Shown one piece after another: positions 20,501 to 46,038 of a DNA stretch of 64,000 nt. The notes beneath the pieces are model-generated. The model searched no databases. It was not told the origin of the DNA and saw nothing but the letters and a program-made list of their open reading frames with translations. The stretch lies in NCBI RefSeq assembly GCF_036785885.1, contig NC_092312.1, positions 10,992,001-11,056,000 on the forward strand, read 5' to 3'. Position 1 is the stretch's first letter; every line of letters begins with the position of its first letter. The translations under genes and the position numbers were made by a program. This stretch comes from Coffea arabica (taxonomy: Eukaryota; Streptophyta; Magnoliopsida; Gentianales; Rubiaceae).

Positions 20501-22417
20501 AAAATATTGTTGCAAGTCTAAGCAGTCTTTGTACTTTTCATTGCTAATATTCTCCTTTTTTGCCTGTTATCCCCGCAGCTTATGGTTTTGCAGGATTTTG
20601 CCTTTAAAAAAATTTGGCTAATTTGTTTAAGTTCAGATTATACTCTTCAGTTGAAAAATAATTAACAAAATCATCGATAGTGTTCTACACTTGAATGCGC
20701 CTATCAGTTTGGTTTCAATCTGATTCTTTTGCTGAAGAAGATTGTATTAATTAGAAAAATGACTTATGAAAGTTGAAACACAAGAGAATCGTTATCATGA
20801 TCATCAATCCTTTAGAAATGTAGGCGTTGTTACATATAGCATGTCCCTTTTTCGCAATGCTCACTTTATCCAACTATCGCCAGTAAGGGGTTTCATTTTT
20901 CTTTTGCTTTGGGGTCATGGATGATATTGGGAGTTCATAAATATTTTTTCTGTAAATATAGTATCAGTTGCACTCCTTTGCTTTACCCTGATAGGATAGG
21001 AAGAAGCAAGAAAAAGAGGCTGTTTCCCTGATCTTCGTGTCTCACTTTCAGGCCATTCAGCGAATATTTTGTCTGAGGAAGTACAACGGTTGCATAAAGT
21101 TTGTCCCTGCACCAGGATATGAGGCTTGTGGAGAAGTTACCAGCATAGAATGTGAATCTGCTGGTGAAGTCATTCCCAGTGAAGATGGAACTGATAAGTT
21201 GCTCGTCAATGGTCAGCAAAATGGCTATCAAGGTGCTGATATTGACATGAAGAATCTAAACTGGCGGAAGGTTGATGGACCTTTTGTTTCAATCTGGCTT
21301 CATAATGTACCTTGGGGAGGGGAGGACACCATGGCCGCTCCTGATGCTAAGGTCAGGTTCAACTTAGTTCTTAATTTACTGGTGATTTCACTGAATCATG
21401 TGTTTTCCAACGCTAAGAAGTATAAAATATGTGATTGTTGTGGGCATCCTGTGACAGAATATTTTCCTTATTGCTGAAATTGTTTTTGTACTCTTTTTCT
21501 TCTTCGTAATTTTTTTGCTTTTTCCTTCTTTTCTTTTCAAGTGTAGTCTTTGCTTTGTTTTCCAATTATTGGAAACCTTATCTTTTCCAAATCCACCTCT
21601 TTCTCTCTCTCTTCCATGAAAGATTTGGGGCTGCAGTCAGACTTCTGTTTCAAGTATTTTTGCTGAGTGATTTGCAAATGTTTAACTTCTTGGTTCTTTC
21701 TTCCTCTGCTTGATTACAGTTTTCAGATGGTTATCTGGACTTGATTATGGTAAAAGACTGCACCAGGTTGGGGTTGCTAAGATTGATGACTGAACTGAAT
21801 AATGGTGGTCATGTTAAATCGCCACACGTCCAGTACCTTAAGGTGAGTTCCCCGTTTTAAACCTAAATCCTTCTGTATTCTGGTCCTTTAATTTAATCAA
21901 GTCTTGACTGTTTCTGAAGTATTCAATGCAATACCATCATTGAAGGGGGAAATTTTTCTCTGTTTCTATTTCATTATTGTTTATCTTACATAGAAAAGTA
22001 TGTGGTGCTTTTGATGGGTGGAGTTGTTTCTCTTTCAAATTTTTTAGTGATATTTATGAGGATCTCGGAGAACTTTTTGAAGACCATTTCAACCATACAA
22101 TAACCCACCCTAAGAATGAAGGGGGAGCTGAGGAGGAAGAAAAAATGTAGTTTGTACTTTAGAGTAGGCTTTAAGTTTGGACTCCTGTGGCTATCCAGAT
22201 TGCTTTACTTATTCCATATCTGCAGGTGAAGGCTTTCATTTTGGAGCCTGGTCCGCGAAATGATGATCCATCCAAGGAAGGGATCATAGACGTAGATGGA
22301 GAGCTTCTGGCCAGCGGAAAAGGAACGTACAGATGTGACCAGAAGACCCTGTTGGCTTATGAAAAACTCCACATCAATGTGGAGCAAGGATTGGCTACAT
22401 TGTTTTGTCCTATTTAG
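17579..22417 (+). CDS. SPHK1: Sphingosine (long-chain base) kinase, 10 exons, about 487 aa
   Basis: Exons: 17579-17894, 18622-18744, 18860-18960, 19416-19488, 19692-19778, 19899-19976, 20085-20155, 21052-21351, 21720-21842, 22226-22417. All introns are GT-AG and all phases fit. The 487-residue length is close to Arabidopsis SPHK1. The enzyme phosphorylates sphingoid bases to 1-phosphates, lipid signals in guard-cell and stress responses. The diacylglycerol-kinase-type catalytic domain starts near residue 107 with RPKRLFVLVNPYGGKRSA. It contains the nucleotide-binding SGDG (about 173-176, in VCVSGDGILVEV) and the GTGNGMAKS loop (about 205-213); the substrate-side GDIDIESEKYRWMG block follows (exon 7). 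Exon 8 carries a variable insert typical of plant SPHKs. The start ATG has a G at +4. The tandem array ends about 85 bp upstream, so the promoter probably overlaps repeat DNA. Confidence 0.93.
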
Positions 22418-22529
22418 AAGTCAATTTTTCTTTCAATCGATTGGGTTTCCAAATGCAGGCTTTACATTACATATATTGCACAAGATAGCTGTTTGTTTCT
22501 CGCTCGACCCCATGTATACAACCGGTGGC

Positions 22530-22700
22530 GGAGCCACGTATAGTTGTGGGTGGGCAGTTGTGCCCCCTCAACTTTGGTAAAATCACAAAATAGCCTTGGA
22601 AGTTTTGAGAAGTTTTCAATCACGTTATATCTGTCCCCCCTTAAATTTTGTGAAATTACCTTTGACAGTTTCATTGCTCCCTTAACTATTAAGATATCAT
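22530..22700. mobile_element. Relic sharing GGTGGCGGAGCCA with a second copy near 57.9 kb
   Basis: It begins GGTGGCGGAGCCACG and continues with GGGTGGGCAGTTGTGCCCCC, a phrase familiar from dispersed plant repeats. A related start (AGTGGCGAAGCCGGAAC) occurs at 57861. The right boundary and superfamily are not resolved. Confidence 0.35.
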
Positions 22701-23513
22701 CCTGAAATAGCGATTATTTTCTGTTCTATTTCAAGTTATAAAAAGATCGATCCATTTAGATTGAAAATTATTTTAAAAATTTTCTTTAATGTAGCAATTT
22801 TTTTAAAGTCCTAACTCAAATATGTAGAATGATCATATTGCTAAATTAAATTCACAAAATTAAGTTTAATGATACGTATAAGAAACATCATAATAGCAGC
22901 AAATTGCACCCTTAATTTAAGGTCCTACACCACGTAAGGGAATAACCATGAAGTAAAGGAACTAGATAACAATAAAGCAAACATTTTGTCTGTGTCCCAT
23001 TCTAAATAACTAGGACAGAAAACTATGAAGGTTAGAAGGAGAAGATGGGCAAAATATGGATGTATCACAGATAGGAAAATTCACCCATGGATATTGGTGC
23101 AAGTGAAAGGGATATGCATCCCTTAATTACGAGGTTCCTGATTTTAAATTTATGAGAATGAAAAGGATAACGTTGGAAGAGTTTCCCTCACAAGGATTCT
23201 AACACGATTCAAATAGAATTAGTCGCAAACTTTAAAATGATACGAATACTTGTAATTTATATCAAAAAAGATAGGAAAATTTGAAAGAAAGAACTCTACG
23301 ACTGTCGCCTATGATCTAGAGAGTGCAAGAGACTCCAACCCAGTTCGAAATGTACGAAACAAAATAATCAACTTGATGATTGAAGCCATTTTTGTCACTA
23401 GTCTTGCTTGGACGACGGCTAAGCCGGACCAAGCGGCAATCAAAAGCATGATTTAATGGTACGCTACAAGTGACTCTTTCTTGCTTGGCCGCCTTATCCA
23501 TTTTTGTCTACAT

Positions 23514-23975
23514 TAGGAATGTGCAATTTCGGAAAAAAATCGATTTACTGATCCATTTCAATATTAATTCAGAACTTCAAAATCGATAAAAAGGGAAATT
23601 GGAATTTTCGTTTCTAATGGTACGATTAGATTCAAAATTGGGATTATGTTTTACCAAATTTCGATTCCAATTTCGAATTCATAATTCGAAAACGGTAAAT
23701 CTGATTCCTATTTTGAATTCAAATTTGTATATATAAATAAATATGCATAGATATATATTGATATTAATACATATATGTAATATAAAATATTTATATGATA
23801 TAATAATACCTCTGAGTTCTAATCACTAATTATATTATATAATAGTACTATAATAGTGAGTCTAATTAAGTTTGTTGTACGGAAACAAAAATTAGCATCT
23901 AATTTAGCCAGTCGAATTTGGTGAATACGGTAGTTTACCGAATTTTGAAATGAAATCGAAACGAAATTGAAAAGT
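23514..23975. mobile_element. Possible decayed hAT-like element
   Basis: It begins TAGGAATGTGCAATTTCGG, like many plant hAT termini. The body alternates AATTTCG and CGAAATT phrases around an AT-rich centre and ends in GAAATCGAAACGAAATTG. No matching right terminus or 8-bp duplication was found. Confidence 0.3.
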
Positions 23976-25582
23976 TCTTTCTTCATTTTTGTTGCTAAAG
24001 CTTTACGAGCTCTAGTTAAGCTTTTCTGTTCACATGATTGACTCCTTAATTAGTGTTAGAATTAAGCTTCAGCGTTGTTGACCTAAACATCCCCTCATTG
24101 ATGGATCACTGTATATTGTTAGAGTAAATTAGTAAGACTTATTGTGCATCGATATATTGGATTATTTGATTTTCTTATGCTACACAGTGTACGGATCTTT
24201 GTGTACATAAATTCTCCAATCTTATGCTTGTCAATCCTTTCGAAAAGTAAATTACTAATGAGAAGAGCTTATTAATTAATTGATTCTTGTCCTCCATTGT
24301 CTTTTACAATCCAGCCGGGCAAAAGTGATTCTCACCTGAGTATAATTTTTAAAGAATAGATCATGGTCGTTTATTTCTCCAAGGTATTGTCGTTTGCGGG
24401 TGGCTATAAGTTTCTTCTGCAGCTGATTATTGTTGTCGGTTATGTCTAATCTTGTTTGGAATCTAACCTATGTATTTCATTTTTAGAAAAACTCTTTTTT
24501 TCTCAAAAAAAAAAAAAAAGAGTTTTGCTGATGCCAGTTGCCGCGGAGGTGCTGATGTCATCGGTCGGCTGTAGGAGCATTTCTCTCCTTCTTCCCTGTC
24601 CCTTCTCTTCTCTCCCCATTTCCTTCCTTCCTTCTTCCTCCCTCCCTCTCTCTCCCGCCACCTCAGCCTCCCCCCTCCTAATTTTCCTGTGCAACTCTGA
24701 GAGAGTATAATCGATCACATAAAAGAGCATTTAAATCTAAGAGCTGATTCGCTACTAATCAAACATAATTAATCAGTATTCAAAAGTTAAAAGTTTTTCA
24801 TTAATTTGTAAAACTTGGTCATAAATAACATATAAAAACGATAAAAGTTTATGTGATTAAACAAAATGACTTCCAATGAAAATCTCGTCATAACCCCTAT
24901 AGTAGATCTTTTGTGTTAAACCATAAACGGAGAAATAGAAAATGGAAGAAAATGATAACTTTCTCAAATGAGAGTTATGTCACGTTTCAAAAGATAGGAA
25001 TGCTACCGTTAACTTCCATACCTTCTTGTATAATAGGTAGGTAGGTGTGCGGTGGTTGATTCCAAAAGGGGTTTAAAAAAAAAAAAGAGTTATACCAGCA
25101 CCTAAGACAAAATTTCACATTTCACTCCAATGGGTCTAGTAATAAATTGCATAGTCTAGTTATTTATAAAATATATTTTTTTGCATCCTAAATAAAATTT
25201 TTATTATTTTTTATCTCATATATATTATAAAAAAATGATAATAATTATTTTAAATAATTGTATCAAATAATCTCGACACACACAAGAGTGCGCGAGATTC
25301 AGTGTACACAGAAAAGAAATCGCATTCAGATAAGGTTGGAGAATTCGCCCACTGACAGCGACGCCGAGGTCGACCAAAACTCAAACTCAAGTCATCGCCA
25401 AAAAACGACGCCGTCAGCTCCTAGACTAAAATTAACCCCTTCTTCCCTATTCATCAACGTGCTCTTTAAGCCATACTACTACATGTAACACGTATCTGAT
25501 CTCATGCTCACGCGCCCACACCCACCCACCCACACACACACACACACACACTCCTTTCCCCACTGCGTAACAAAACAACACT

Positions 25583-25602
25583 CTTCTCTCTCTCTCTCTC
25601 TC
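25583..25602. repeat. (CT)n run in the presumed VAL 5' leader
   Basis: A pure CT run about 320 bp upstream of the VAL start codon. CT repeats are common in plant core promoters and 5' UTRs. A (CA)n run lies just upstream at about 25532-25550. Confidence 0.8.
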
Positions 25603-25924
25603 AATCCTAAAACCCTCTGCTGAGGAAAACCCAACCCGTAATCAAATCAAATCGTCGCCCTTCACCTCCTTCACTTTCTCTCTCTTTCAATAGAGTTTTT
25701 AAGTTCACATAGGATTTTTACGCTTTTTTACGTTTTTCACGCTTCACCTTATCTACCACGAAAGTTTCATGGTTCGACTTGCACGACTCAATCGACGGAA
25801 CACGTTTTCCTCGATAAATCTTTTTTTTTCCTCTTTTTCTTTGTCGTTTAGGTTTTGGTAATTTATTGTTAGGGTTTTTATGCGGCGGCGGAGGCGGGGT
25901 TTGTTAAAGGTTTATTAGGAAACT

Positions 25925-28900
25925 ATGGCCGCGTCGGCGGCGGCTTCGACGGCGTCGCTGGCGAAAGTTTGCTTCAATTCCAACTGCAAGGAAACTCTAG
26001 AGAGGCCGAGGAAAGGTTGGCGTCGCCGGACCGGCGAGTTTGCTGACCTTTGTGATCGTTGCGCGTAAGCCAATTTATTTCTTTTAATTACCGTTGCGGA
26101 TTTAGAAGTTTTGCGTTATTTTTATGACCCCCATTTTACTTGTGTACTAAGTTTTGATTTCATGTCTTGTGTTTTGGGTTTATTTTAGTAGTTTTTTTGT
26201 GTCAAAATCGTATCTTTGGGAATGCTAAGCAGAACTAGAGTCTGACAAATGCTGCTGTTGAATTTCACTTCTCTGTTACATTTCCTTATTTTTAATTTTT
26301 TCCTGGAAAATAGTGAGTGGTGTTTCTGGTGCTTACTTGAGCTTTGACTTATTGGGCATGACTGTTGTGTTTGGTAAGATCAGATTTTTTATAGGATATG
26401 CCTCTTAGTAGCATGTTCTATGAGAGTTCAGGTTGTGATATATTTGTTCGGTAAAAAACCGTTGTACTGTTTATGTTACTATCGAGGCAAGAGGTCATTG
26501 TTAAAACGCTGTTATTACCTGAATTCCAGAAATGGGGAAAAAAATTTAAAGTTAGTGTGCTTCTAAGTAAACGAATTTAACTATGTTGGTTGCCCCTTTT
26601 TGGTTTTGAATTGTTTTTCTGAAGTTTCTTGTTAGTATAAAGTTTCTATCTTGCTCTTTTCCTTTTCTCGCCTCTGTTGGTATCTGATTCTTTAGGAGTC
26701 CTGAAGATAAATTACTTAAAACTCTAGTGAAGAAAAATTCCAAAATGAGGGAATAAGGCAGTCAGGAAGCCTTCCGTCATTTAACCCCAAGGGACTTGGT
26801 CAGGTTTCGTGTATTCTTGCTACTATGGGACTTGTATGTGTGGGTGAAAACTATTCTACTAGACATGGTTTTATGGTTTTTTACTTGTTTCTTTGGGGGT
26901 GAAAACTGTGTTGACAGTACAAGCTACTTATTATTATTCCATGGTCATGTGTTCTTGTCATTATGAGACTTGCTGTCCTCTTGTTTAGTTGTTGGTTAAT
27001 TTAAATGTATATGTCTGGAAAAGGGGGGCAAACAGATATCGGAGTATGCCTGTCTTTTTTTTTTATAGAGTAAACGTTGAGGAAAAATAAGGGTTGGGCT
27101 CTGGAAGGGAAGGAAATTAACATTTCCTTTCTAAAATATGAGGTGCTAAAATGGTTGCATGATACATCACATTTTTCTATATCTGGGTTTAAAGAATCAT
27201 ACCTCAGGTCTACTGATTCTGGAGCTTTTGTTGGACACATTTCTTAATTAATGGGTACAGCTTTTTGAAGGTATTTTGCTGATTCTTTGACAAACATGTA
27301 CAGTAGGCCAAATACATAATAAGGTGTGCAAGAAGCTTCTTTGGGTGCACAAATAACATTTGTATGGGTAATGGTGCTATATGTCGGCTTGGTCTGCGTT
27401 ATGGTGGTTGCATGCACGAGTGCAGATGCTCTTAAGACGTATACATGGCGGCACATATCTGAATTCATGGACTTCCCACCTATGAAGAAAATTTAAAACC
27501 AATGTCACTCTGAATGTATAAGGGACTTTATATTCTTCAATCGTGCATCTCAGAAACTATTCTTGAATACTTTCTGTGCTTCAGTTATTTCTCTCAATAA
27601 TCCCTTCATATTTCTTTAAAGTTGTCTCTATAGATACCCTGAACCTGACAAGAGTTATATTTGATTGTAGTTCTGCTTATGAGGATGGAAAATTCTGTGA
27701 ATCTTTTCATCTTGATGCTTCTGGTTGGAGATGTTGTGAATCTTGTGGGAAGGTAAGCCAGATATTCATTGGTTTTCCAGGATTTGAATTTAGGTTCAGG
27801 GAAACAACCACAGGACCCTGTGGCTAAGTAACTTTTGTTGATCTGTGCTGCACTAATGATGACTTTGTTGGTTTTCAAATTTGAAAGCTCCATCCTTTTT
27901 CTTCAATGGGGTTCTAAATCTTTAAATTATCAAATGCAGCAAATACATTGTGGATGTATTGTCTCTTTCCATATGTTTGTCCTACTGGATGCTGGTGGAA
28001 TTGAGTGTATAACCTGTGCTCGGAAAAGTTTCATCTTGGTAAGAGTCATTTGTTCCATTTGATGGTTTCTGAATTTCGCATTTGCTTGTCTATCATCTAT
28101 TGCTTCCCATAGCTTCCTTTGCACTCTTTTAAGCATTAGGAAGTCTTGGTGGCAACCGTTTGATAAGGGCATAGACAGCTTAGATTTAATGATGGAAATC
28201 CTAAAAATAGGATTTATTGTCTATGTTTTAGAGAGATTTAATGAGCTAATTATTTCACCATCCTTTTACCAATTTATGACTTGGAACATAACTATGATTT
28301 AGACACTTGTATTATGCTTATTGAGTGTCTATGTACTACCAGTTTACCAATTCAAAACTTGAACATTGCTATCTTTAGACAGGTGTAATGAGGTTAGTAG
28401 CATAAACAGCTCCCCTGTATAAAAATTCGTCCACGGAAATAAGCACTTGTGATTGTTAACTAGTAAAATAGTTGTATTGGCATGATTTTTTGGCCAATAA
28501 TTTAGTTTTTAGTATCTGTTTCTGCTATATCTTTTGACACCTTAGAATCTCTAAGCTTGCACAAGTTTAAGCATATGAAAGAGTAGCCTCTTCATCTGAT
28601 TGTGTTTTGTCTGATTTTCCTCTAATTATGTAGTTCAGAAACTTGTTTAAATTAATAATTTTGAAAATTCAGTAATGCTGTACTATCCATGACTTGAATG
28701 TTTAAACCATAATCAGTATTTCTTTCGTATCCTTTCTCTAAGATATTGTTTTGCGGTTCTCATTTTTTTTCTTGTCATCTGTCTTGTAGACGCCAAATCC
28801 AGCTTGGCCTCCGCCTTCATTGTTCCTTCCTTTACAGCCTGAAAGAATTAAAGATATATCTGTCAAAAATTGGAGTCCGATAGCCGGTTCAGGTCCAGTG

Positions 28901-31900
28901 CCTTGGCGTCAAGCTCCTAGTTTGTTCAATGGTTCTGCTATCCAATCTGAGTTGCAGCCAAGGGTTCCCACACCAATTGAATTTGATGTATCAGGTGGGG
29001 TTGATAGGCTCCAGCTTAATGAAAGATTATCTTCCTCTTTGGAGAAGAAAAAAAAGGAGGAATCTTTTGAAAGGTTCATGAATGGGAGCCTGAGGATTTG
29101 TTCTTCAGAATTTGGGAGTGGCACTTCTGGTAATTGATTTCACTGCTCAGAGATGTACTTGAATTACATAGTACATAGATATAAGGAATTAACATTATGT
29201 CCACCAATGTAATTCTTTGTTGCAGGAGCCATGGGTAAGGAGCAATCTTTTCCCTTTTCGAATGCTTCCCCTCAAACTGGGTACCCATCAACTTCAGATT
29301 TCAGTGTAGCTACAGCTCCTGCATTGGAAAATGGAAGCAACAATCATACTAAGGCATCTGGCACTCTTATTCAACAGACAACCCAGCCAACACCATCTGA
29401 GAAACGACCTTGTGGTCACAACCCAGCAGATTCGTCTGAGGGTCAACCACGCAATGGACGGGCCAGACCAGAGGTACGAGCACGGAGTCAATTGCTTCCT
29501 CGTTATTGGCCCCGAATAACTGACCAGGAGTTGCAGCAGATATCTGGAGAGTATCCTTATGATAGAAAAATCTTGATAAGTTTTTGTGACACCTTTGACA
29601 TTGCTTTAGTTTTGGCTTTTGGTTTATGGTTGGGTCGAAACTTTTACTTTTATGCAGACATGGCATAAGCTTTCTCAAAGAAGCATTTAGTTATCAGAAA
29701 TTGTTAATGCACATATAATTTTTAGATGCTTGAGTTGACAAGCTGACTACGGCAGTTAAGCATCTTGTTTTGACTTAACTACATCTAGTTCAAACTCGGT
29801 AATTACACCTTTGTTTGAGAAGATGCTAAGTGCAAGTGATGCTGGCCGGATAGGGCGCTTAGTGCTTCCCAAAAAATGTGCAGAGGTAAGTACTTATTAG
29901 GTGCTCAGCTTTCGAATTTTTAAGTGTTTCTGATCTTTTGGTTTTCTAGATTGGATGTTCTTGGCATTTTGATTGTAAATTAATTGTTTTCTAGATTGGC
30001 ATCTGTACACTGTAGCCTATGTTTGGGTTGTATGTAAATGCTGTTAGCTGAATCTTCATTTTCTGATGTGCTACACTGAACATTGACTGCTGTCAGCTAA
30101 CAATGTCACCAAGTTTTGAAAGTATATGACTTAAACTTTTTACTGCCTGGAAGTGTTACTTACTGTTCTTTATTACTTGTTAGATGGGGGCTTACTTAGA
30201 ATTTTCTGTATAAATATTACCTTCTTGTATTCATTTCTGAGAAACATATGTACTATGATGTAGGCCTATTTTCCACCAATTTCTCAGCCAGAGGGATTGC
30301 CACTGAAAGTACAAGATTTGAAAGGGAAGGAATGGGTTTTCCAGTTTCGGTTTTGGCCAAATAACAATAGCAGAATGTATGTTCTAGAAGGGATAACTCC
30401 TTGTATACAGTCTATGCAATTGCAAGCTGGTGATGTAGGTAATTATTATTGTTCAGCACTTTGAAATCCTTGAATATTTCCCTAATACCACGTGGATTTT
30501 TAGTTCTTTGCTTATGATTAATCATGGAACCTGAGAGCTAAATAAGGTTTTTCATTTTTTTTCCATGTGGGCTGGAATGGGAATGGGAATGGTCAACCAC
30601 ATGGTAAACATCTATTGTTGTCTGATTCTAGAATCATATTCCGGTAGCCGTGCATTGTTTGGTCAGAACCGTCATTTTAGTTTCTTCTAATTAAGTATCA
30701 ATTCTCTTACAACTGGTATCAATTTGGAAAGGATATTAAGTGGTGTTGCATGGGTGCTTTTGAACGGTGGGGGACTGAGAAAGGTTAATAATTCTGCTTC
30801 TAGTAATGTATCGTACTACCTCTATTTCAACTATCATAAAGCATGAACATGGACGACAAATTTTTGTACTTCAATAGTATTTTCATAATAATTAACTATT
30901 TGATGCTAATAGCTTCTCCCATCCTTTTTTCTTTCAACTTTTTTCCTACCTTTACTTTTTCTCCATGATTATTTTATTAATTGCACAGATGTAGGGTGTG
31001 CCTCTCTCATTAGTGTTGAATCAAGTGCTGAGAGCATATTTTGTCATTTTCCTGCATTAATTCATAGGATGTAGTATTTGGAGAACTATATCTTTGTGTA
31101 TAGTGAAGCATGTACTTAATGCGATTCTTTCTTCCACTGTTGCATTTTGCCACCAAATCCACCCTTCTCCCTTGTACTCACAAGAAAAAAGAACGCAAAA
31201 CCTCTCACCACCCACCCAAGAGAGGAATGAAAGAGGAGAAAAAGAAAACATGAGTGCAGAATTAGGATATTTGCATTTTTTTGTATTTGTATGCTAAAAT
31301 ATCCAGACACTAATGATATGTGATCAAATGATTCAGTAACATTCAGCAGAATAGAGCCAGAAGGAAAGTTGGTCATGGGTTGCAGAAAGGCTTCATGTGC
31401 TCCATCAGATCAGGTTGGTCAATTTACTACAAAATGCAAAATAGTGCTCTTTTCCATGTTCATGATATCCTTAATTCATTATTTTGAGGATAGATGCACA
31501 GTGCTGGCTTGGCTTGTTTTCTGTTTCTTGTTGGCACATATCAGTAACCAGGCCTATAAGATTAAAGCTTTCTTAATTATTCTATTAGCATACAACTGGT
31601 GCATTGGATTCCTTTTATCACATAATTGTTGTGGACAGGGAGGATAAGACTGATTTGCAATATATTAAAATTGTAGAACTTTCCACATGACTACAATATT
31701 TCACACCAGAACTTGTCTTAGTTGTTAACTATTATGGTTCTGTTTTTCGCTAGATTGATCTTTCATTAAGAATACAGCGTCACATATTATGACCTTTTTA
31801 CAATATACAGGGAAATGAAGCTTCTAATGCTGGGCAAGGATATTCTTCAAACGGGGATGTTGCGCCTAAGAGTAACAAAGCTGGTGAAATAACAAAACCT

Positions 31901-34757
31901 GGTGAACTAGTATCAACTAATTCTCGTATGAAAGGCTACTCAGCATCATCCAGTTGTCCATCACTAAATCGTGCTGCAGCAAAGTCGGGAAGTTCTTGGC
32001 CAGAACATGATAAACCAGTGCATGTAGCCAAAGTAGTTGAAGCCAAGCCTGCAGTCCGTAGTAAGCGAAAAAATAGCACTTTGGGTTTAAAAAGTAAACG
32101 CCTTAGGATTGAAAATGAGGACATGTTAGAGCTGAAAGTCACCTGGGAACAAGTTCAAGGATTGCTCCGCCCACCTCCTAATAAGGCTCCTAGCGTCTTT
32201 GTTATAGAAGGTTGTGAAATTGAAGAGTATGAGGTATTCAAGTTGGTCTGTTTAGATTTTTCTTGTACTTAAGCATTGAAGCTGGCTTTACTTGATTTGC
32301 TTTTCTATTTTGAAAGTTTTAGATAGGCAACCATTTTCATCTGTTACCTGCCTTATTTTGTGTGTGTGTGTGTATGTTGATATAGCTGTTTCTTTTGAGG
32401 AAGCACATTGTAGAATTTTGTCATGCTGTAAGTTCATGAAAAAGCACACCCTTTTTTGCGCCATATAGCTCATACGTGCTAGAAGCATACCAAGAAGATG
32501 GTAGGCTGGAAAAAGAGATTAATGGGTAGTACATTGAGGATGCACTTTTGAGTCTAATGTCATGGTTTTTGAGCATTTAGTTGCTTTAGTTAATGCAGCT
32601 TTATTCGTGAATGAGTTCATTGAACTGATTGTTGTTGCTGACATTTCTTAACAGAATATTTTGTAATTGCTGATATCATTGTCCTGCATGAAATTTTTAA
32701 AGAAAATTATACTCAAATTTCTAGAAGTTCTCTAAATTGATTCTGCTTCTTTGGTCATCTGTCAATGCTTCCTGATAGTTGCTAAGTTAACTTAACAATG
32801 GCTCAAGCTTTTTAAGGATTTTGAAATTCTGCATTCTGACTTCATTCTCTACAGCAGGACGCACCAGTTATTGGAAGACCTACTATTCCTGGTACTGATC
32901 ATCAAGGGTAGGTTCTCTATGTGCTTCTTGGAAAACTGGAATTTTTTTTTGACTTCTGTTGCTATGATTTTATACAGGGTAACATGCCCATTTTTTTAAA
33001 TTTCATTTTGCAGCAAAAAGATTCAGTGGGCTCAGTGTGAAGAATGTTCTAAGTGGCGCAAAATACCTGCTGATGCTCTTCTTCCATCAAAGTGGACATG
33101 TTCTAAGAACTTGTGGGACCCTGAGAGGTATGGTGGACAACCAAAACTATGCTTTCTGCTTTGAGGGATTGGCTGTTTGGATGCAGCAGCTTGTGGCTGT
33201 TTCTCCTGTTGTATTACATGCATTCCAGCCTATGATATGATGCATTGCTTAATTGATGATTGTCATTGTGATCTCCCACCATTATATGTAGTTACGTGTC
33301 TATTTGCTTGTTCTTTTGCGGTTCTTAGAGAATAGTGATTCTGGGATAACTCTGATAACAGCTAGTTATGTTTTAAAACCAAGTGTTTTTACTATTGCGG
33401 TGACTGCAGAAGCTCTCCTGTAAAACTGAAATGGAGTTGAGTATGCTCTTTATCCATGGTAAAATATTGGTGTCAAGTTCAGTAAGGAGGCATGTGGCAG
33501 CTGAGATTAACCTGTCTTAATTGAGTGATAGACCTAATAGAACTTTATTGTGTTTATTTAGTCCTATGGATATGGATTAATACCATGTCTATATCACCAA
33601 GAGAATCTCAGAATTTATACAGGCTAGTTTCTTGACAAGTTTGATGTGAGCTGGTGATAGTTGTTGGTAATATTGGTTTCTCTGGCTTGTAGAATATTCT
33701 CCTTCCCAGTCCTTGCATCTTTCAAGTTCAATATTCTTGCCTCTTAAATCAGATCTTTTGCTTTTTAAAAAGTATATGACCCATTTGTGATTTTGGACCT
33801 GATAGATTATTAAGTTCAGGCTAGAATATTTTGTCTTATAACTGGTGCAGGACATTGCTCTGTTTGATGTGAAAAGGTTGCAATGTATCTCACTTTATTT
33901 GGCACACTAGCCTAGAGCTCCATGGTACAGTGTGTGAGCTTATCCTGGAATCTTACTGATTCTTTCAACTTTGTTGCAGATCTCTCTGTTCAACGGTTCA
34001 AGAATTATCCATGGAGAAGCTTCAGGACCTATTACCTGCTATTAGCAAAAGTATGAACTTTTTCTTGTTTCCTTCTTCTCATTGCATAAAAAACCCAGGT
34101 CTGTTTCACCCTTGAGGAGCCTTAGTCTGCTAGACGAGTGCTAGTGTTGTCATGATTTGTTAATTTCCAAATAAATAATATTACTCCTTTGCAGCTGCTT
34201 CTAAGAAGATAAGGGCTCCTAAGCAGGATCCTGACTCAGTTGAGGCTTTGGAAGGGCTTGATGCACTTGCCAATCTAGCCATACAGGAAAAATCAGGGTC
34301 CTTTCAGGCATCCCAGGCAACAACAAAGCACCCGCGCCATAAGGCTGGTTGTTCGTGCATTGTTTGCATTCAACCGCCAAGTGGAAAAGGACCCAAACAT
34401 AAGCAACCATGTGACTGCATTGTCTGCAAATCCTTGAAGCGTCGTCATAAAACCATGATGTTGAAAAAGGAGAAAAATTTAACAGAGAAAATTCCAGAAA
34501 CGAGTGACCAAATGCTTAGCATGCAAGAGTTGCCTGAACAAGTGCCTAATGGCCTTGTGAACAAAAGTCCAAAGGAGGAAGTGGTAAGTGATGAGGGTTG
34601 TATTGACAACCCTGATGAGATGTGTTCTGCATTGCCATTTAAAGGTCAAATAGACCTCAATATACAGCCAGAAAAGGAGGAAGAGTTGTCGCCTAGTTTT
34701 TGTTCTGGTAACATCCCAAGATCGATGCTGGAGACTCGGGAGCGGCATAACAGGTAG
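25925..34757 (+). CDS. VAL/HSI2-type B3 transcriptional repressor, 13 exons, about 851 aa
   Basis: Exons: 25925-26064, 27671-27752, 27940-28038, 28790-29129, 29226-29550, 29789-29885, 30264-30438, 31337-31413, 31811-32233, 32858-32907, 33014-33127, 33980-34050, 34195-34757. Phases all agree. Domains in order: PHD-like Cys/His region (residues about 15-107, with CESCGKQIHCGC); B3 DNA-binding domain (about 335-440, [20 protein letters not shown] through [13 protein letters not shown]); CW zinc finger (about 605-652, [16 protein letters not shown]); a second Cys cluster typical of VALs (about 712-745, [10 protein letters not shown] and CDCIVC); and an EAR motif DLNIQP (about 818-823). VAL1/VAL2 bind RY elements, recruit Polycomb and shut off the LEC2/FUS3/ABI3 seed programme; the CW domain reads methylated H3K4. 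The presence of CW and PHD-like domains places this nearer VAL1/VAL2 than VAL3. Arabidopsis VAL1 is about 790 aa. Exon 10 has a tandem acceptor that could add one Gln. Confidence 0.95.
32852..32858 (+). other. Tandem (NAGNAG) splice acceptor of VAL exon 10
   Basis: The sequence ACAGCAG at the 3' end of intron 9 offers two AG acceptors three bases apart, at 32853-32854 and 32856-32857. Use of the first adds one Gln codon before DAPVIG; use of the second does not. Both keep the frame. Confidence 0.8.
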
Positions 34758-36609
34758 CAGAGGTTATCAGCTTCTAGTGGTAGAGGAAGTTTAGTTGGCA
34801 ATCAGACATAGCAGGATGCAGCTGGACGGACAAATTTCAGTAATATTGCTCTTCATAGCAGTTACAAGAGAACTGAGTCTGACCTGCGTTGGTCTTCATT
34901 GAAAGAGACAGTGGCATCGTTGTCACCAGCCTGATGAAGTGTCTTTCCTGCTGTCATATAGGGGAGTACCTGAACTACTTTTTTGGTGGAAGAGGCAGGT
35001 CTAACTTAGTGTACATTCATCTGCTTTTGGAATTACATAGTTGTATATAAACTGGTAGGATGTAGTTCTATCGCTGCAAAAACAAGTAGTACATTTTTCA
35101 GGTAACTATCTGGATATCATGGCCTTCCTCTGCTCGTCTTTGTAGTGTTTAGATGCACTTGGAGAGGCTGTGGTTGAAGCTGCTCCTTATGTGGTTAGGA
35201 GCTTGCTTTGCCGCCCTTAATGTGAGAACATACTGCCAGTGTAATTAAAGCATGATTTTTTTTTTAATTGAGTATAGAGCAATTGCGTTGTTTAGTCCTA
35301 TTTGCACTTGTAAGTAAGTTATGTTCTAGAATTTCTTACAAGGAGGATATAGACGGTCTGCCAGATAGATTGCTTGATACATTTGTGGGGGGGGGGGGGG
35401 GGGGGGGGTTATCGCTGACAAACTTTTGAGACTATAAGTTGCTTATTTTTGTGTTTTTTTTGGGGGAGTGTTTACAAATAACTCGTGTTCGCATCAGTTA
35501 TCTGAATGAGATTGCTCCGTTTGGCTGGAATTTTTGGTTGTTTGACTTGTCAGCAAACGGAATTTGGAACTATACTTTCTAGTGCTGTTGACCATAATTT
35601 GACAGATAAAAGATCTGTGTGACTAGTATTTATGCCCATCGCTTAATGTAGCAAAGATGCTACTCTCGCACTTGCAGGACAACACCATGAAATTATACTA
35701 TCTCAAGAACAGTGCATTCAAATGCTTGATCATGGTGCTAATTCATCCAGTGTTTTGGACGGCAAGGTGCTACAGTGCTAGTCCACCATTCCGGAGATGT
35801 CGAACACTTAAGTGCAACTATTCTACTGAGGTCAATGCCACATTCTTCGGCAAGTTGTGCCAGCCGAAAACTCAAGATTCAAAAATACGATCACGCTCAA
35901 CCCCGGTTATATTTTTATCACGTCTAATGAAAGCATCGAAAGAATTTCCAATTGGGAGGTCTTTGCAGGTCAAGAATTCCGTTAACATGAAAAAGAAAGA
36001 TATATAAGAATCAAAGCATGCAAGTCACTCTGCAACAGCTATTTCAACGTAGACATTAATCTTCGTGCTCCTCTAGTTCTAAGATTCTCCGATACCTCAA
36101 TGGTAACTGGCAAAACATGTGCTTGGTCTTATCTTTTGTGCTGGAAGACAGGACATGGTTGGGAGGCCCAAAGGGTAGCAAATCTGGAGGGAGCAACTGC
36201 CACCAAGGAAACCTCAGAGAGGGTCATAGAAATGACATCAAATTTTACAACCATGCCAAGGATGGACAGCGTGGGACAACCATGCCGCTGTAGTTAGGGC
36301 CAAGGATGGACAGGAATTTAAAAGCAGCTGAAAATTGAGGTAAAGCTTCTTTTTTTTTTCTTTTTTGTCGATGAACTTGGATAAACAATATTAACATATC
36401 AGATAAATATTTCCTATAGTTCATGCAAGTTAAATAGACAAACGAGAAGTTTTCTGAGTTTTACATCAATTAAGCTCCTTTTGAGCTCTTCATTCATTTA
36501 CTTTTATTGAAGAAAAATATAGTGACTCTATGAAATTTACATAATATGCTTCATATCTTTACAACATATACTTGTGTTTAAAGCTTGTGGTAAGATCCCC
36601 AACTAGGGT
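34758..36609. other. VAL 3' flank and intergenic region
   Basis: The first few hundred bases are probably the VAL 3' UTR. A 22-base G run sits at 35387-35408. A frame at 35657-36007 (116 codons) and one at 36100-36297 have no recognisable domain; another frame of the same stretch reads EIILSQEQCIQMLDHGAN and then closes. This could be a decayed gene fragment, but I cannot name it. Confidence 0.45.
35387..35408. repeat. 22-base poly-G run
   Basis: An uninterrupted run of 22 G about 630 bp downstream of the VAL stop codon, beyond the likely 3' UTR. Length accuracy in the assembly is doubtful for such homopolymers. Confidence 0.95.
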
Positions 36610-37272
36610 TTGTTCAATCCCGTTGCCCTAATTAGAAGGAACCACCAAATCTTTGGCACCATGTACATGGAGTTGGACAGCAAGATGAAGCAACAGCACC
36701 AGAAAAGCCTTGGCACAGAGACGGAGAGCGTGGAGAGGAAGAAAGCAAGGGTTTGTAATGAGCAAGAAGAAGGTGACAAATCACGCATCTATTTTCTTGT
36801 CAAGAACCAGTCTTATGGTACCTTTTGGTACATAGACCTGAATGAAAGAGATGACGAGGGTCATCCATGTGGTCAGAAACTAAATGCGCAGCGCCCTCCA
36901 TTCACAGCCTACCAACGGGTTGCTATTGGTTCTTGTGGCTTGCTGATTTACGCTTTGGGAGGTCTAACCGAGGAGTCAGATGATGATACTGGTCTTTAAT
37001 ACACGGTCTACTTTTATAATACGGCAAACCGGTCCCTTCAGAGGGATGGTTTATTTTGGAAGAAAACCGATGAGAGCGGCGGTGAACCTTGGTACATTGG
37101 TCGAGCCTCGGGCTTTAGATTTGCTACCCTTTGGAAGGCACAACCTTGCTGCATTATGTTCGGTGTGTTCACTGCTTCGCCTCCGGCCGGCACCGCGGAT
37201 CACCCTCGTGATTTTTCTGTTACCATTGAGAAATATGAGCTCCTCACAATAGAGGATCCTCATGGAAATTAA
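36610..37272 (+). pseudogene. Kelch-like gene fragment with an internal stop and a frame change
   Basis: The frame from 36610 (or Met at 36661/36670) reads a polar start, then IYFLVKNQSYGTFWYIDLNE and YQRVAIGSCGLLIYALGGL, with the hydrophobic-Gly-Gly pattern of a kelch blade. It ends at TAA 36997-36999. The same frame resumes at once with YTVYFYNTANRSLQRDG, the expected next blade strand. At about 37065 the kelch-like text changes frame: PMRAAVNLGTLVEP continues in the +1-shifted frame. One nonsense codon plus one shift within about 70 bases argues for a pseudogene, or for assembly error. The kelch assignment rests on pattern resemblance only. Confidence 0.45.
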
Positions 37273-38254: not shown

Positions 38255-39416
38255 GGCCCTGTTTGGCACCTCAAGTTTTTACCAAATTTGTATAATATTA
38301 GTTTTTTAACAACTTTTGCTACAGGAACCCCAAAAAACTTATCAAAGTTTTTAACCTACACACTTAAAAAATACACAAAAAACTTTCCTTTCAACTTTTT
38401 TTTTTCTTCTTTTTCCTCCTCCACCCAACCCACCACATCCTCCGCCGCTGGCCACCACCTCCACCACCACTTCCGGCGCCGGTCATCATTCCGGCCGCTA
38501 GTTCCGGCCTTCAACTTTTTTTTTCTCTCTCTATCTCGACCCCTCTCCTCCTCTCCCCTCCCCCTTTGACCAATCTATGGTGTCTTTCTGAAAATTTTTT
38601 CCTTTTTTTTTCTCCCTCCCCCTCTCCTCTTAGCGTCTGCCTCCCCCGCCACCCTCCCCCTCCCCCTCCCCCTCTCCCTTTGACTGATCTGGTCGCGCGA
38701 CCAGATCGCAAAGGAGGAGAGGGGAAGGGAAGGGGCGGCGGGGGAAGGGGAGAGGGGAAGAGAAGGGGCCAGACCAGCGGGGAAAGGGAGGGTGGCGGGG
38801 AAGGGAAGGGCCGGCGGGGGAAGGAAGGGGAAGGGGAGGGGCGGCGGGGGAATGGGAGAAGGGAAGGAGAGGGGCCAGACCAGGAGGGAGAGGGAGGGTG
38901 GCGGGGAAGGGGAGGAGAGGGGAAGGGGAGAGGCGGCGGGGGAAGGAAGGGGATGGGGAGAGGTGCGACCAGAACGCGTCGCGAAGGGGGAGAGGGAGGG
39001 TGGCGGGGAAGGGGAGGAGAGGGGAAGGGGAGGGGCGGCGGGGGAAGGAAAGGAAGGGGAGAGGGAGAGGGAGAGGGAGAGGGAGAAGGAGAAGAGGGAT
39101 GGTGGGGAAGGAAGGTGGCTGCCATGGAAGAGAAAAAAAGTAAAAAAAAAAAAAAAAAAAGGTAGAAGGAAAGTTGCTGCCATGGAGAACTCGGGAGAGG
39201 GAACAGCGGAGGGAAGGGGGAAGGAGAAGAAACGGGAAGAGAGGAAGGAAAAGAAAAAAGAAAGAGAGAAAAAAAAAAGAAAAAAGAAAGAGAAGGAAAG
39301 AAAATGAAAAGGGAAAAAAACTTTTTATCTTACAAAAGTTTTTCTACAACTTCTACAGTGATCTACAGTAAAGTTTTATACAAACACCCAAAAATCTCAC
39401 CTTCCAAACAGGCCCC
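38255..39416. mobile_element. Fold-back MITE-like element with CT and AG arms
   Basis: The ends are inverted: GGCCCTGTTTGGCA at 38255 and TCCAAACAGGCCCC ending at 39416, the GGGCCTGTTTGG terminus shared by several plant elements. The left arm is CT-rich (about 38510-38680) and the right arm AG-rich (about 38710-39310), with a perfect 22-bp palindrome between them at 38686-38707. The AG arm is a minisatellite-like series of GGGGAGGGGCGGCGGGGGAA-type phrases. Overlapping frames here (up to about 204 codons, both strands) are Gly/Arg/Glu or Pro/Ser low-complexity and not genes. A convincing target duplication was not found. Confidence 0.65.
38686..38707. repeat. Perfect 22-bp palindrome at the fold-back centre
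   Basis: The 11-base half GATCTGGTCGC is followed directly by its exact reverse complement. Flanking bases extend the pairing imperfectly (CTCTCCCTTTG left, CAAAGGAGGAGAG right). Confidence 0.95.
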
Positions 39417-40056: not shown

Positions 40057-40188
40057 ATGGCTTCTCATGCCAACCCAGATTCCAATAACAATGACTTCAA
40101 CCAATTTCTTGGTCAAATAAATTCAGTTCCTCATCAGAGATTGAAGAAGAGGAGGATGAAGCTCCTCTTGGGAGCAATGAGATCTTGA
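40057..40188 (+). CDS. Small 43-aa ORF upstream of the syntaxin gene (uncertain)
   Basis: The ATG lies in a strong context (AACCATGGCT) and reads MASHANPDSNNNDFNQFLGQ, ending at TGA 40186-40188. Another reading frame over the second half gives an acidic segment (SSSSEIEEEEDEAPLGSNEI) that looks more protein-like and stops at a TAG shortly after 40188. Either this is an upstream ORF in the syntaxin 5' leader, or the remains of a frame-shifted small gene. No family was recognised. Confidence 0.25.
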   Translation: MASHANPDSNNNDFNQFLGQINSVPHQRLKKRRMKLLLGAMRS

Positions 40189-40308: not shown

Positions 40309-41229
40309 TTGTCAGATATGTTCATGTCTGGTTCCTTCAGGAAATACAAGGATTTGAAGAATCAGGCTCCGAGGGACAGCATGGAAATTGGTGGAAGGCT
40401 GTCAAATGATGCTAGCCATCTCGATCGTTTTATGCATGAACTCGAGATCGTGAAGGAAGACGTGAAAAGCATGGATAAGCTCCGCAATAGGCTGAATGAA
40501 ACGAACGAGGAGAGCAAAACCGTCCCGGATGCGGCAAAAATGAAAGAACTCAGAGCCCGGATGGATTCAGATGTTGATCATGTCTCGATGCTGGCCAAGT
40601 CCATCAAGAAAAGAGTCGAAGCTCTAGAATTCATGTCGTCCACCGATACCATTGACCGAACCATGATTTCCGTGGTTATGGGGCTTGGAAAAAAACTAAG
40701 GGACATGATGGATGAATTTCAAGGGCTGAGAGTCAAAATGGCAACTGTATACAAAGAAACTGTCGAGTCCAAGTACTACTCAATCACGGGAGAAAAGCAA
40801 TATATAGAGGCCATCGAGAATTTGGCATCCACCGGACGACTTGAGGATTCTCTGGAAGAGGCAATCCAGGAGCATGGGAGAGATAGAGTAGTGGATTTTT
40901 TTCAAGAAGTTCAAGAAAGGCGTGAAGGTTCGAAGAATATGCAGAGGAATTTGGTTGAGTTGCATCAGGCGTTCTTGGACACGGCTGCTGTAGTTGAGGG
41001 ATTTGGTCAGAAGGAGAGCAAAAGTGGCGGCTTGGGTCGGGAAAACCAAGTGGTCCGTGAGAGTTCCTTTATGAAATCAACTGGGGCGGCACAATTGCTA
41101 GACCAGCCTGATCATTATGATATGGAAGCCAGAAGGCGTGCTAAATTTGCTATAGCAGGAGCTGTAACTCTTGTTGTCATGATCCTTATCCCACTCTTCG
41201 TTAATGAGTCTTTTAGGGATTTGGAATAG
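40309..41229 (+). CDS. Divergent plasma-membrane-type syntaxin (SYP1-like Qa-SNARE), intronless, 306 aa
   Basis: The N-terminus MSDMFMSGSFRKYKDLKNQ, the Habc-type helices (about 35-160, including ELRARMDSDVDHVSMLAKSI, LGKKLRDMMDEFQGLRVKM and YKETVESKYYSITGEK) and a C-terminal membrane anchor (about 278-298) follow the plant SYP11/SYP12 pattern. These proteins are target-membrane SNAREs for exocytosis or cell-plate fusion. The SNARE motif starts normally (VQERREGSKNMQRNLVELHQAFLDTAAVVE, about 201-230, given here in part). From residue 231 it departs: where the family has a zero-layer Gln (VESQGE or similar), this protein reads VEGFGQ with Phe at 232, and the rest of the helix is rich in Gly, Ser and Lys. 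The frame is otherwise intact. It may be a specialised, non-fusogenic paralogue or a young pseudogene. Confidence 0.8.
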   Translation: MSDMFMSGSFRKYKDLKNQAPRDSMEIGGRLSNDASHLDRFMHELEIVKEDVKSMDKLRNRLNETNEESKTVPDAAKMKELRARMDSDVDHVSMLAKSIKKRVEALEFMSSTDTIDRTMISVVMGLGKKLRDMMDEFQGLRVKMATVYKETVESKYYSITGEKQYIEAIENLASTGRLEDSLEEAIQEHGRDRVVDFFQEVQERREGSKNMQRNLVELHQAFLDTAAVVEGFGQKESKSGGLGRENQVVRESSFMKSTGAAQLLDQPDHYDMEARRRAKFAIAGAVTLVVMILIPLFVNESFRDLE

Positions 41230-43838: not shown

Positions 43839-45663
43839 TTAATTGGCCCCACGGTTGATCATTTCCATGTACTGGTTCAACGACTCTTGCCTCTGCAGCC
43901 TCATATCTTCATTGAATTTCTTGATGAATGCTTCGACTCGGCGGTTCAACTCGTCCTGACCCGGTGAAGGCTCCCTATGAATCCTCCCAGGAACCGGCGG
44001 CCCGGTGGTTTGTGCGTCATAATAACTGGTGCGCTCTCTGAAGGTCTGTGATTTGGGCACGTGGTCCGGAGTGAAGTCATGCTCCGAATCTAGTGATGGG
44101 TTTACCAAGACCTCCCGCCCATGATTCTCCCACGTGTCAGATCTCTTCAAGTGCCTCGTGAGCGGCACGTGACGCCCATCCGTTATCATCTTCCACGTGC
44201 TCTCCAGCGTTTGATCCCTCTTTGGCCTTGCCACCCTCAGCGCTCTCCCACCTTCCAAATCAAAATAAAAAATAATATAATTAATAAAAAAGAATAAGAG
44301 CTCAATGGAGTAACTGTTTGACCACCCAACCTAACTACTTCAAATGAAATTTTAGGCAATTAATAAAAATTAGAAGACAAGAAACCTTTGTGGGCCAATA
44401 TGGGAGCAACTACTAATAAGTGCGTGCTTATCTAGTGTAGCTAAACATAGCAATTTTCTTCTGTCCATACGTAAACACAAAAAAAAAAAAAAAAAAAGTA
44501 AAGGACAAATTAAAAATTTGGTAGAGTTTTTCCGTGAAACTTCTGCATTAAAATATGGTCAAACTTAGGACATCCTTAGAAATGGCTAATGTTTACAACC
44601 ATCATCAATGAAAAGAATACCGCAAAATTTCAATTTTTTTTAAAACCTTCCAATTTCTCCGTCCCGTATCCTTTTCACCTCCAACTGCTAAGTTTCAAAT
44701 TCGAACTCTCTGCACCGACCTTAGAAGCACACTCTAACGGTACACTCTAATAGTTCTCTCCTGATCATTAATGGATCAACCGCAGCTGTTATACCACAAA
44801 ATTTCGTTGCATGAGTCCACAATTTAAATCTATATAGCGTCCGTGGTAGTTGACTTGTCTTGCTACCAATAGTAGGGTTAAAATTGTAATAGTAGTAGTA
44901 GAACTTAAAAAATGGGAAAAAAGTAGTAGTAAAATAAAAGACGGGAATTTTTAATTTAGTAAATTGAGTTTTTACCTTCGGGACTGGTTTTGATAGGCTT
45001 CCTGTGACCAAATCTCGACGCAGTTAGCGGTTTCTCTTTTTCCGGCAGGAGAAGATCCAGGGGAGACTCGGGAGAAACCATCTTCTGAGACGGAGTGGCA
45101 CTAGACTCCCAAACCACCCATTCGTCATTCGCCACGTCATCAGCATCTTCAGTTCCTCCAACGGCCTCAAATTGAACACCGTTCACCACCACGGGCTTCA
45201 GCTCCACAACCTTCTCATCCTCGTCTTCGTCTTCATCTTCAGCAACATACACCTCCACCACAGGCGGCGGAGGCAGCGCCAGCGGCCCCGGAGCTTCCAC
45301 TGCATTCCTATTAAGCTCATCCTCCCGCTGAGCCAATACTACCGCGGCCACCACATCAGACGGCGGAGGTGTTCTAACAGAAATCAGCGGCTCACGTGAT
45401 TGATAGGAATCCGAGTTTTTGGATTGGTGATGATGACTGAAGCGGGAGGAGGCGGCGATGGTGATGATAATAACGTTGATGATGAAGTAGAGGTAAGGAG
45501 GCTTGAGCCAGGTCACCACAGATTTCCAAACTACAGGAAGGTCATAACAGGTGAAAGCTGTAATCGATGGAACAGAGAATATCATCCCCATAGCCATGGA
45601 AATGGCTCCCGTCGAAATCAAGATAATTTTCAGGGAAAGTAGCAACGTAGTAGGAAACGACAT
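43839..45663 (-). CDS. DUF4408/DUF761-type membrane protein, 2 exons, about 366 aa
   Basis: On the minus strand the exons are 45663-44976 and 44251-43839. The GT-AG junction joins ...SPEG to GRALRVARPKRDQ in phase. The N-terminus has two hydrophobic segments (about residues 3-32 and 53-75), as in DUF4408 proteins. A long acidic and Pro-rich middle follows (ALPPPPVVEVYVAEDEDEDE). Exon 2 encodes the conserved ESTWKMITDGRHVPLTRHLK block and ends with a DUF761 signature (about 329-362, DELNRRVEAFIKKFNEDMRL). Members of this family are poorly characterised; some were named for expression in cotton fibre or vascular tissue. The open frame runs a further 124 codons upstream to 46035, but that part covers the presumed promoter and two duplicated promoter units, so I start at the ATG at 45663, where the hydrophobic N-terminus begins. 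Confidence 0.85.
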
Positions 45664-45787
45664 TATTTTTTTTCCCTCCGATTTGTAATTTCCAACAGAC
45701 CAGAGAGTGGAGTGTATATGCTTAGCTTTGAGTCTGGGGAACTTTTCCTTCCAGGTTGCATGGTTCTGTGGGAGGTGGGTGGCTGGG

Positions 45788-45798
45788 GATATAAATAG
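45788..45798 (-). promoter_or_regulatory. TATA-like element of the DUF4408/DUF761 gene
   Basis: On the minus strand this reads CTATTTATATC, about 125-135 bp upstream of the chosen ATG. That spacing would put transcription start near 45760 and leave a leader of about 100 bp. It is a prediction from sequence alone. Confidence 0.45.
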
Positions 45799-45954
45799 GG
45801 GTGGGGAAATGGAGGGGGGACCGGGGAGGAGACGTGGTAAGTGGGATTTGATGGAATGAGGGCCGTTGGATATAAACATGGGGTGGGGACATGGAGGAAG
45901 GACTAAGGAGGAGACGCGGTAAGTGGGATTTGATCGAATGAGGGCCGTCGGATG
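45791..45954. repeat. Duplicated ~82-bp promoter unit
   Basis: Two imperfect head-to-tail copies lie directly upstream of the TATA-like element. Each contains GGTAAGTGGGATTTGAT followed by GAATGAGGGCCGT, at 45836 and 45918 onward. Period is about 82 bp. Shared blocks could carry duplicated transcription-factor sites. Confidence 0.8.
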
Positions 45955-46032
45955 TGGGAATGGAATGGAGTTCGTGAGTTGGAGCTGCGGGGTGCAGCAA
46001 TGCAACTTGCTGAGGAAATTGGGGGGGTGGCC

Positions 46033-46038
46033 CACGTG
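46033..46038. promoter_or_regulatory. G-box (CACGTG)
   Basis: A CACGTG palindrome in the context GCCCACGTGTGAG, about 370 bp upstream of the DUF4408/DUF761 ATG. G-boxes bind bHLH and bZIP factors, including ABA and light regulators. Function here is inferred from position only. Confidence 0.4.

Follow-up and report, generated by a model that had tools for sequence, protein, structure and literature searches.

A long-kept SYP12-type syntaxin gene of Coffea arabica with a diverged SNARE motif: a candidate non-fusogenic Qa-SNARE

Introduction

What is the role, if any, of a syntaxin gene whose reading frame is unbroken and half of whose SNARE motif has diverged past recognition? The question is raised by a stop-free run of 306 codons on the plus strand of the Coffea arabica genome (40309..41229), within a stretch of 64,000 nucleotides that was analyzed as a whole and is referred to as the window. 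The window lies on C3 (G000:C3) of the assembly that was searched, which comprises 1.198 Gb in 131 contigs. If the gene is expressed, it would represent a natural experiment on a syntaxin without the helix half that pulls membranes together, docking and SM binding would be separable from fusion in a living plant, and the lesson that phytolongins provide for R-SNAREs would extend to Qa-SNAREs. If expression is lacking, the gene is a duplicate in decay of the ordinary kind. The features of the frame are as follows.

40309..41229 (+): divergent SYP12-type syntaxin frame, unbroken, 306 codons plus stop (ORF reading, Pfam, genome search)
40309..40311 (+): TTG where the paralogues' MNDL has ATG (paralogue alignment; codon 1 is identical in the C4 copy)
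40318..40320 (+): Met4, the earliest ATG in frame and the probable start (sequence)
40414..40866 (+): Habc regulatory domain, residues 36-186 (PF00804, 101.5 bits)
40645..40650 (+): codons 113-114, between which about 10 Habc-loop residues (GCGPGSS region) are absent (alignments)
40867..41001 (+): residues 187-231, the linker plus the retained N-terminal SNARE half (family model, 58.1 bits)
41002..41004 (+): zero-layer codon TTT, giving Phe232 instead of Gln (alignments)
41002..41136 (+): residues 232-276, the C-terminal SNARE half, so diverged that Pfam no longer recognizes it (Pfam, family model, alignment)
41026..41040 (+): in-frame 15-base insertion GGLGR, residues 240-244, its exact place being alignment-dependent (alignment)
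41146..41202 (+): putative C-terminal membrane anchor, residues 280-298, mean hydropathy 2.73 (hydropathy only)

Domain Content, Membrane Anchor, and Start Codon

The window protein has a clear Habc domain, with PF00804 well above its cut-off of 26.7 bits, and a Pfam scan finds no SNARE domain (PF05739) in it up to E=1. The same holds for the copy of the gene on C4, where PF00804 reaches 98.3 bits and PF05739 is not found up to E=0.01. Control proteins give both domains with the same models: 65.5 bits for PF05739 and 187.4 bits for Habc in the SYP124-like protein of this genome, and 31.4 and 151.1 bits, respectively, in the SYP112-like protein. Arabidopsis SYP124 and SYP123 score 65.1 and 59.1 bits for PF05739. 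The Habc score of the window protein is far under those of the two paralogues. Judged by hydropathy, a membrane anchor appears to be retained directly behind the SNARE region; three paralogues have values of 2.82-3.46 at this place. The initial annotation of this DNA, made from the sequence alone, had described a Habc region, a membrane anchor, and a frame without a stop in 306 codons, and all three hold, the last in both chromosome copies. A PDB sequence search with the window protein returned three matches (E 0.31-0.73), none of them a syntaxin, and no relatives were found in bacterial and archaeal contigs, viral contigs, or phage records.

The N terminus of the window protein reads LSDM, with its leucine coded by TTG, at the place where the paralogues have MNDL, and the MNDL start is absent. 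The ancestral start codon is lost, and because the family ATG is now a TTG, Met4 (40318) is the likely start of translation. A separate ATG frame of 43 codons (MASHANPDSNNNDFNQFLGQINSV...) is found immediately upstream of the syntaxin frame at 40057-40188; it may be an upstream frame or may belong, as a fragment, to some other gene.

The Zero Layer and the C-Terminal Half of the SNARE Helix

The position of the invariant zero-layer glutamine is occupied by Phe232 in both chromosome copies, as the initial annotation had read it in one; the five paralogues of this genome that were aligned (S124, S121, S112a, S112b, and KNOLLE) all have Gln. The two halves of the helix were scored against family models built from relatives, with four of the models' own members as reference. 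The N-terminal half (residues 187-231) remains well within reach of the family, with members scoring 73-102 bits and none of 2000 shuffles scoring as high as the window protein. The C-terminal half (residues 232-281) gives only 4.6 bits where the four members give 70-92, a score matched by 14 of the 2000 shuffles (1828 scored at all).

The layers from -6 to -1 are mostly like those of the relatives, with Ser at -7; layer -2 is Thr in the window protein and Met in the C4 copy. Behind Phe232, the GGLGR insertion is followed by two further inserted residues. Past the insertion, layers +1 and +4 are Glu, +2 is Ser, and +8 is Pro, and hydrophobic residues can still be aligned at +3, +5, and +7, all of these assignments being alignment-dependent. 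The sequence ENQVVRESSF in this region still aligns with ESHVAHASSF. Given this alignment and a score that so few shuffles match, the C-terminal half is best regarded as a diverged helix with faint homology and not as foreign sequence. The initial annotation had this half replaced by Gly/Ser/Lys-rich sequence; the disruption is borne out, but "replaced" was too strong a word for a region in which homology remains. In a single-sequence structure model (mean pLDDT 52.5), no helix is formed at residues 232-244, where the confidence is below 50.

A Second Chromosome Copy and Checks for Artefacts

A gene-model or sequence error might produce the same appearance, if a missed intron, an alternative exon, or a frameshift concealed a canonical SNARE helix. 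A search of the genome with the window protein, in which all 106 of 106 candidates were scored, gave 14 matches: the window gene, the C4 copy (97% identity), and pairs of paralogues, some of them in two pieces. The syntaxin matches are paired by chromosome as C3/C4, C5/C6, C9/C10, C11/C12, and C13/C14. The C4 copy differs in 12 codons, of which 9 change the amino acid, the last of them at residue 225. From residue 226 to the end the two proteins are identical, so that the Phe and the insertions are common to both copies and a sequencing error is unlikely. Neither copy has a stop, and the frames on C3 and C4 are separated by 0 indels.

A concealed in-frame intron does not account for the sequence either. 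Among 537 in-frame GT-AG removals (at least 60 bases, inside the frame), the best gave a protein of 227.5 bits, below the 240.6 bits of the unspliced frame. A canonical C-terminal half was absent from 2829 six-frame segments of the window, the best reaching 7.0 bits (E 1.2), and the remaining two reading frames of the syntaxin region carry stops. An in-frame missed intron, a frameshift, and a sequencing error were accordingly dropped as candidates; the initial annotation had named a missed intron or sequencing error restoring a canonical SNARE motif as what would overturn it, and nothing of the kind was found among the in-frame removals, the window segments, or the C4 copy.

Family Placement and the Question of a Retrocopy

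The initial assignment to the SYP1-group Qa-SNAREs could be narrowed to SYP12. In a tree, the window gene falls on the side of SYP123/124/125 and the SYP124-like gene of this genome with a UFBoot value of 96, in a topology that includes Arabidopsis sequences and has a long branch for the gene and an inner order with weak support (51 and 35). The window protein is 48% identical to the SYP124-like protein. A SYP11-like identity, which the N terminus had suggested, was dropped after alignment.

The frame contains no intron, which the initial annotation took as compatible with a retrocopy, that is, a processed copy of a syntaxin mRNA. The SYP124-like, SYP121-like, and SYP112-like genes of this genome are single open frames as well, and only the KNOLLE gene shows an intron (one). 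Two family surveys give 0 or 1 intron for the SYP11 and SYP12 genes of rapeseed (Brassica napus) (PMC8912762) and peanut (PMC10139436). Because the SYP12 paralogues here are themselves intronless, the missing intron says nothing for a retrocopy, and the argument loses its weight. Direct repeats around the frame fall into seven short families, and two 14-base pairs (93% and 86%) bracket the frame; pairs of this kind often arise by chance, and these are not convincing as a target-site duplication. Survival of the marks of a retrocopy would in any case not be expected, given that dS to the SYP124-like paralogue is saturated (dN 0.44). The protein of a neighboring DUF4408 gene has its sole further matches on C9/C10, the chromosomes of the SYP124-like gene, but 5.1-5.5 Mb away from it; this is at most suggestive of an origin of the window gene as an ohnolog.

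Distribution of Changes Along the Protein

The initial annotation proposed a selectively altered fusion helix. At sites invariant in five Arabidopsis SYP12 proteins, changed positions in the window protein number 25 of 68 for Habc, 12 of 33 for the N-terminal half of the SNARE motif, and 8 of 15 for its C-terminal half, with no significant difference between Habc and the C-terminal half (p=0.26) or the whole SNARE part (p=0.70). A larger count covers those sites where the SYP124-like protein of this genome has the same residue as its SYP121-like protein. Here, 35 of 95 are changed in Habc, 15 of 36 in the N-terminal half, and 19 of 27 in the C-terminal half; the C-terminal half exceeds Habc (p=0.004), but the N-terminal half does not (p=0.69). 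Over all domains, 82 of the 177 agreement sites are changed, and the same way of counting gives 14 own changes to the SYP124-like lineage against the 82 of the window lineage.

At the 8 changed SYP12-invariant sites of the C-terminal half, the substitutions are more drastic than under neutrality, with a mean BLOSUM of -1.25 compared with -0.24. Replacements at SYP12-invariant sites are overall no more conservative than neutral (P=0.34), nor are those in Habc (P=0.31), an argument that the fold of Habc is not strongly constrained; the same test at sites invariant in SYP123-125 gave P=0.045. On these alignments, the whole protein evolves fast and the C-terminal half of the SNARE motif fastest, with the N-terminal half kept. 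Of the selective alteration proposed at the outset, the excess in the C-terminal half stands, but the protein is fast throughout and its N-terminal half shows no excess.

Age of the Gene and Selection on the Frame

Selection was estimated with a codon model of nine sequences of this genome on a topology fixed by the analyst. The background has an omega of 0.080, the stem leading to the window gene one of 0.180, and the two tips of that gene one of 0.793, the stem values being rough given the saturated dS. For the stem, the model rejects omega=1 (2dL 13.0, p=0.0003), and the difference from the background is not significant (p=0.09); for the tips, omega=1 is not rejected (p=0.73). For Habc, the stem value is 0.107 (omega=1, p=0.016) and the tip value 1.29. 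For the SNARE region, the corresponding values are 0.317 (omega=1 not rejected at 0.05, p=0.075) and 0.54. The tip estimates depend on few events, as the copies on C3 and C4 differ by only 12 changes, 9 nonsynonymous and 3 synonymous (omega 0.79, indistinguishable from 1). Canonical paralogue pairs show nonsynonymous to synonymous ratios of 3:4, 4:4, 0:4, 9:6, and 1:2. The 9:6 pair, which stands above the other canonical pairs, is a second SYP112-like gene (L012/L013, on C13/C14).

The unbroken frame itself carries information about the past. In neutral simulations that started from Arabidopsis SYP124, 30-40% amino-acid change brought a mean of 5-8 stops, and at most 1% of 400 runs were stop-free in each of four settings. 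Since omega=1 is rejected on the stem and the frame is free of stops with so many conserved sites changed, selection maintained the frame for most of the time over which it diverged. The length differences to relatives come from a protein alignment, where only whole codons can show up.

For the more recent past, the two copies can be compared with their surroundings. Between C3 and C4, the frame has 12 changes in 918 bases, compared with 61 changes in 2212 bases and 26 indels in the aligned flanks (p=0.013 for changes); counting only nonsynonymous sites (9 of 726) gives p=0.017 against the flanks. The signal of recent constraint is only moderate, because among 877 overlapping segments of 918 bases from the rest of the 64 kb, 83 are equally free of indels and changes. 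All but one of those 83 start at 17451-34201, in an apparent large gene. Taken together, the sequence comparisons indicate that the gene is old and that its frame was kept by purifying selection over most of its history. The initial annotation had offered very recent loss of function as one option, and this is contradicted by the Phe and insertions that predate the split of the copies and by a stem under purifying selection; decay at present is still allowed by the recent dN/dS. A dN/dS near 1 over the whole gene together with no expression had been named there as the refuting result; of this, the recent branches show a value indistinguishable from 1, and the stem does not.

Candidate Function and Rival Explanations

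The likeliest reading of the sequence is a protein that would not be fusogenic. In its fuller form, which is held tentatively, the gene is an old SYP12 member from the SYP123/124/125 side that was long kept, has been left without the C-terminal SNARE half, and is a candidate inhibitory Qa-SNARE. Because Habc, the N-terminal half, and the anchor are kept and the C-terminal half is lost, this anatomy would allow docking and at most half-zippering. The syntaxin would be located in the plasma membrane, where partners could possibly still be bound through Habc and the N-terminal layers; zippering would then proceed at most to about the zero layer and give a non-productive complex. The protein would act as a non-fusogenic regulator, either a built-in inhibitory Qa-SNARE or an SM/SNARE decoy, and the process affected would be the secretion served by the SYP124-like relative. 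From this scheme one might infer a dominant-negative role. A more specific proposal, that the gene is the Qa counterpart of the phytolongins, a plasma-membrane syntaxin lineage that half-zippers with SYP124-type exocytic partners and puts a brake on polarized secretion, seems unlikely.

Loss of function is the main rival to the non-fusogenic reading, and it is a distinct possibility that a SYP12 paralogue, functional for a long time, ceased to work in the fairly recent past and today drifts as a pseudogene whose frame is still unbroken, with the wreck of the SNARE motif and the lost start as early damage. The recent omega, compatible with 1 and above it for the Habc tips, fits such a gene, as do the acceleration of the whole protein down to its SYP12-invariant sites, replacements no more conservative than neutral, and the missing start ATG. 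There is also a parallel in poplar (B9I5W3) and soybean (K7KQY1), where SYP1 genes that lack domains and sit on long branches were called possible recent pseudogenes (PMC7573729). The changes at conserved sites, however, are too many for a stop-free neutral episode at 30% change or more, the copies show none of the indels found in their flanks, and the Phe and insertions are common to both.

It is improbable that the protein still drives fusion as a Qa-SNARE with an atypical zero layer and a helix that tolerates both the Phe and the insertion. The hydrophobic residues that can be aligned past the insertion and the long purifying selection would suit such a protein, but the C-terminal half scores far under the four family members and carries Glu in layers +1 and +4, Ser in layer +2, Pro in layer +8, and a Gly-Gly inside the helix. 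The lack of a modeled helix points the same way and counts little at that confidence. On the sequence comparisons above, a retrocopy and an artefact are both very unlikely: the former has in its favor the intronless frame and the two weak repeat pairs, set against its intronless paralogues and saturated dS, and the latter, the least probable explanation of all, is opposed by the splicing trials, the segment search, and the C4 copy.

Comparison with Known Systems

The non-fusogenic reading can be compared with several known systems, and the closest relatives are the syntaxins of root hairs and pollen tubes, SYP123, SYP124, and SYP125. What the window protein has in common with them is Habc, the N-terminal SNARE half, a C-terminal anchor, and sequence. 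It differs in the zero-layer Phe, the insertion, the lost C-terminal half, and the absence of about 10 Habc-loop residues, as well as in a moved start codon and faster protein evolution.

The nearest evolutionary precedent, by analogy, would be the phytolongins. These are described as non-SNARE relatives of the VAMP72 R-SNAREs in which heptad layers persist in the N-terminal half alone (PMC2779197). They likewise keep a regulatory N-terminal domain and an anchor next to a diverged SNARE motif. Phytolongins derive from R-SNAREs of the longin type and form a family across land plants, whereas the window syntaxin derives from a Qa-SNARE, can still be aligned, and has been observed in a single genome only, as two chromosome copies. 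Among syntaxins, the nearest and less flattering precedent would be the poplar and soybean genes, which, by their description, are likewise diverged land-plant SYP1 members without the usual domains; for the window gene, in contrast, age and in-frame history were tested. Titles and abstract beginnings in the open-licence literature yielded no plant Qa-SNARE paralogue with a degenerate SNARE motif acting as a regulator.

Other precedents bear on the proposed mechanism. In the yeast Qc-SNARE Vam7, C-terminal truncation gives stalled, partially zipped trans complexes, which can be rescued by Sec17 (PMC5643095); this rescue counts against an inhibitory reading. Inhibitory SNAREs (i-SNAREs) have been proposed in plants, and SYP1 proteins of the plasma membrane are presented in the review as causing no interference (PMC3627133), which also counts against it. 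A soluble, anchor-less fragment of SYP123 (Sp2) is reported to be dominant negative in root hairs (PMC4961009). By these accounts, i-SNAREs and Sp2 have the effect that would be expected here, a non-fusogenic complex that occupies partners. In i-SNAREs, however, the SNARE itself is intact and inhibition comes from dose or place, whereas the defect of the window protein would be built into the gene product; and Sp2 is an artificial soluble fragment, whereas the window product is predicted to be anchored and its inhibitory effect would follow from its anatomy.

Neighborhood of the Frame on C3 and C4

The surroundings of the frame show several features of their own. Scattered open pieces at 17537-37272 possibly represent one or more plus-strand genes; a Pfam scan of seven of the pieces gave no match reaching the cut-off. 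Some of the pieces resemble a VAL/HSI2-type B3 regulator. Within this region, about 2.3 kb at 28601-30918 have 0 base differences or indels between C3 and C4, against an average of 2.8% over the aligned 54 kb, and this tract represents either a recent exchange or a collapsed or copied assembly.

About 1.3 kb on C3 (38093-39412) are absent from C4, where the flanking matches overlap by 17 bases, and the difference is either an insertion on C3 or a deletion on C4. This C3-only segment contains purine-rich tandem repeats at 38711-39105. On the other side of the syntaxin frame, the DUF4408 gene lies at 44956-46035 (minus strand). On C4, the counterpart of this gene is matched in two different frames, with the junction close to codon 113-123, and one of the two copies, on C3 or C4, may be frameshifted.
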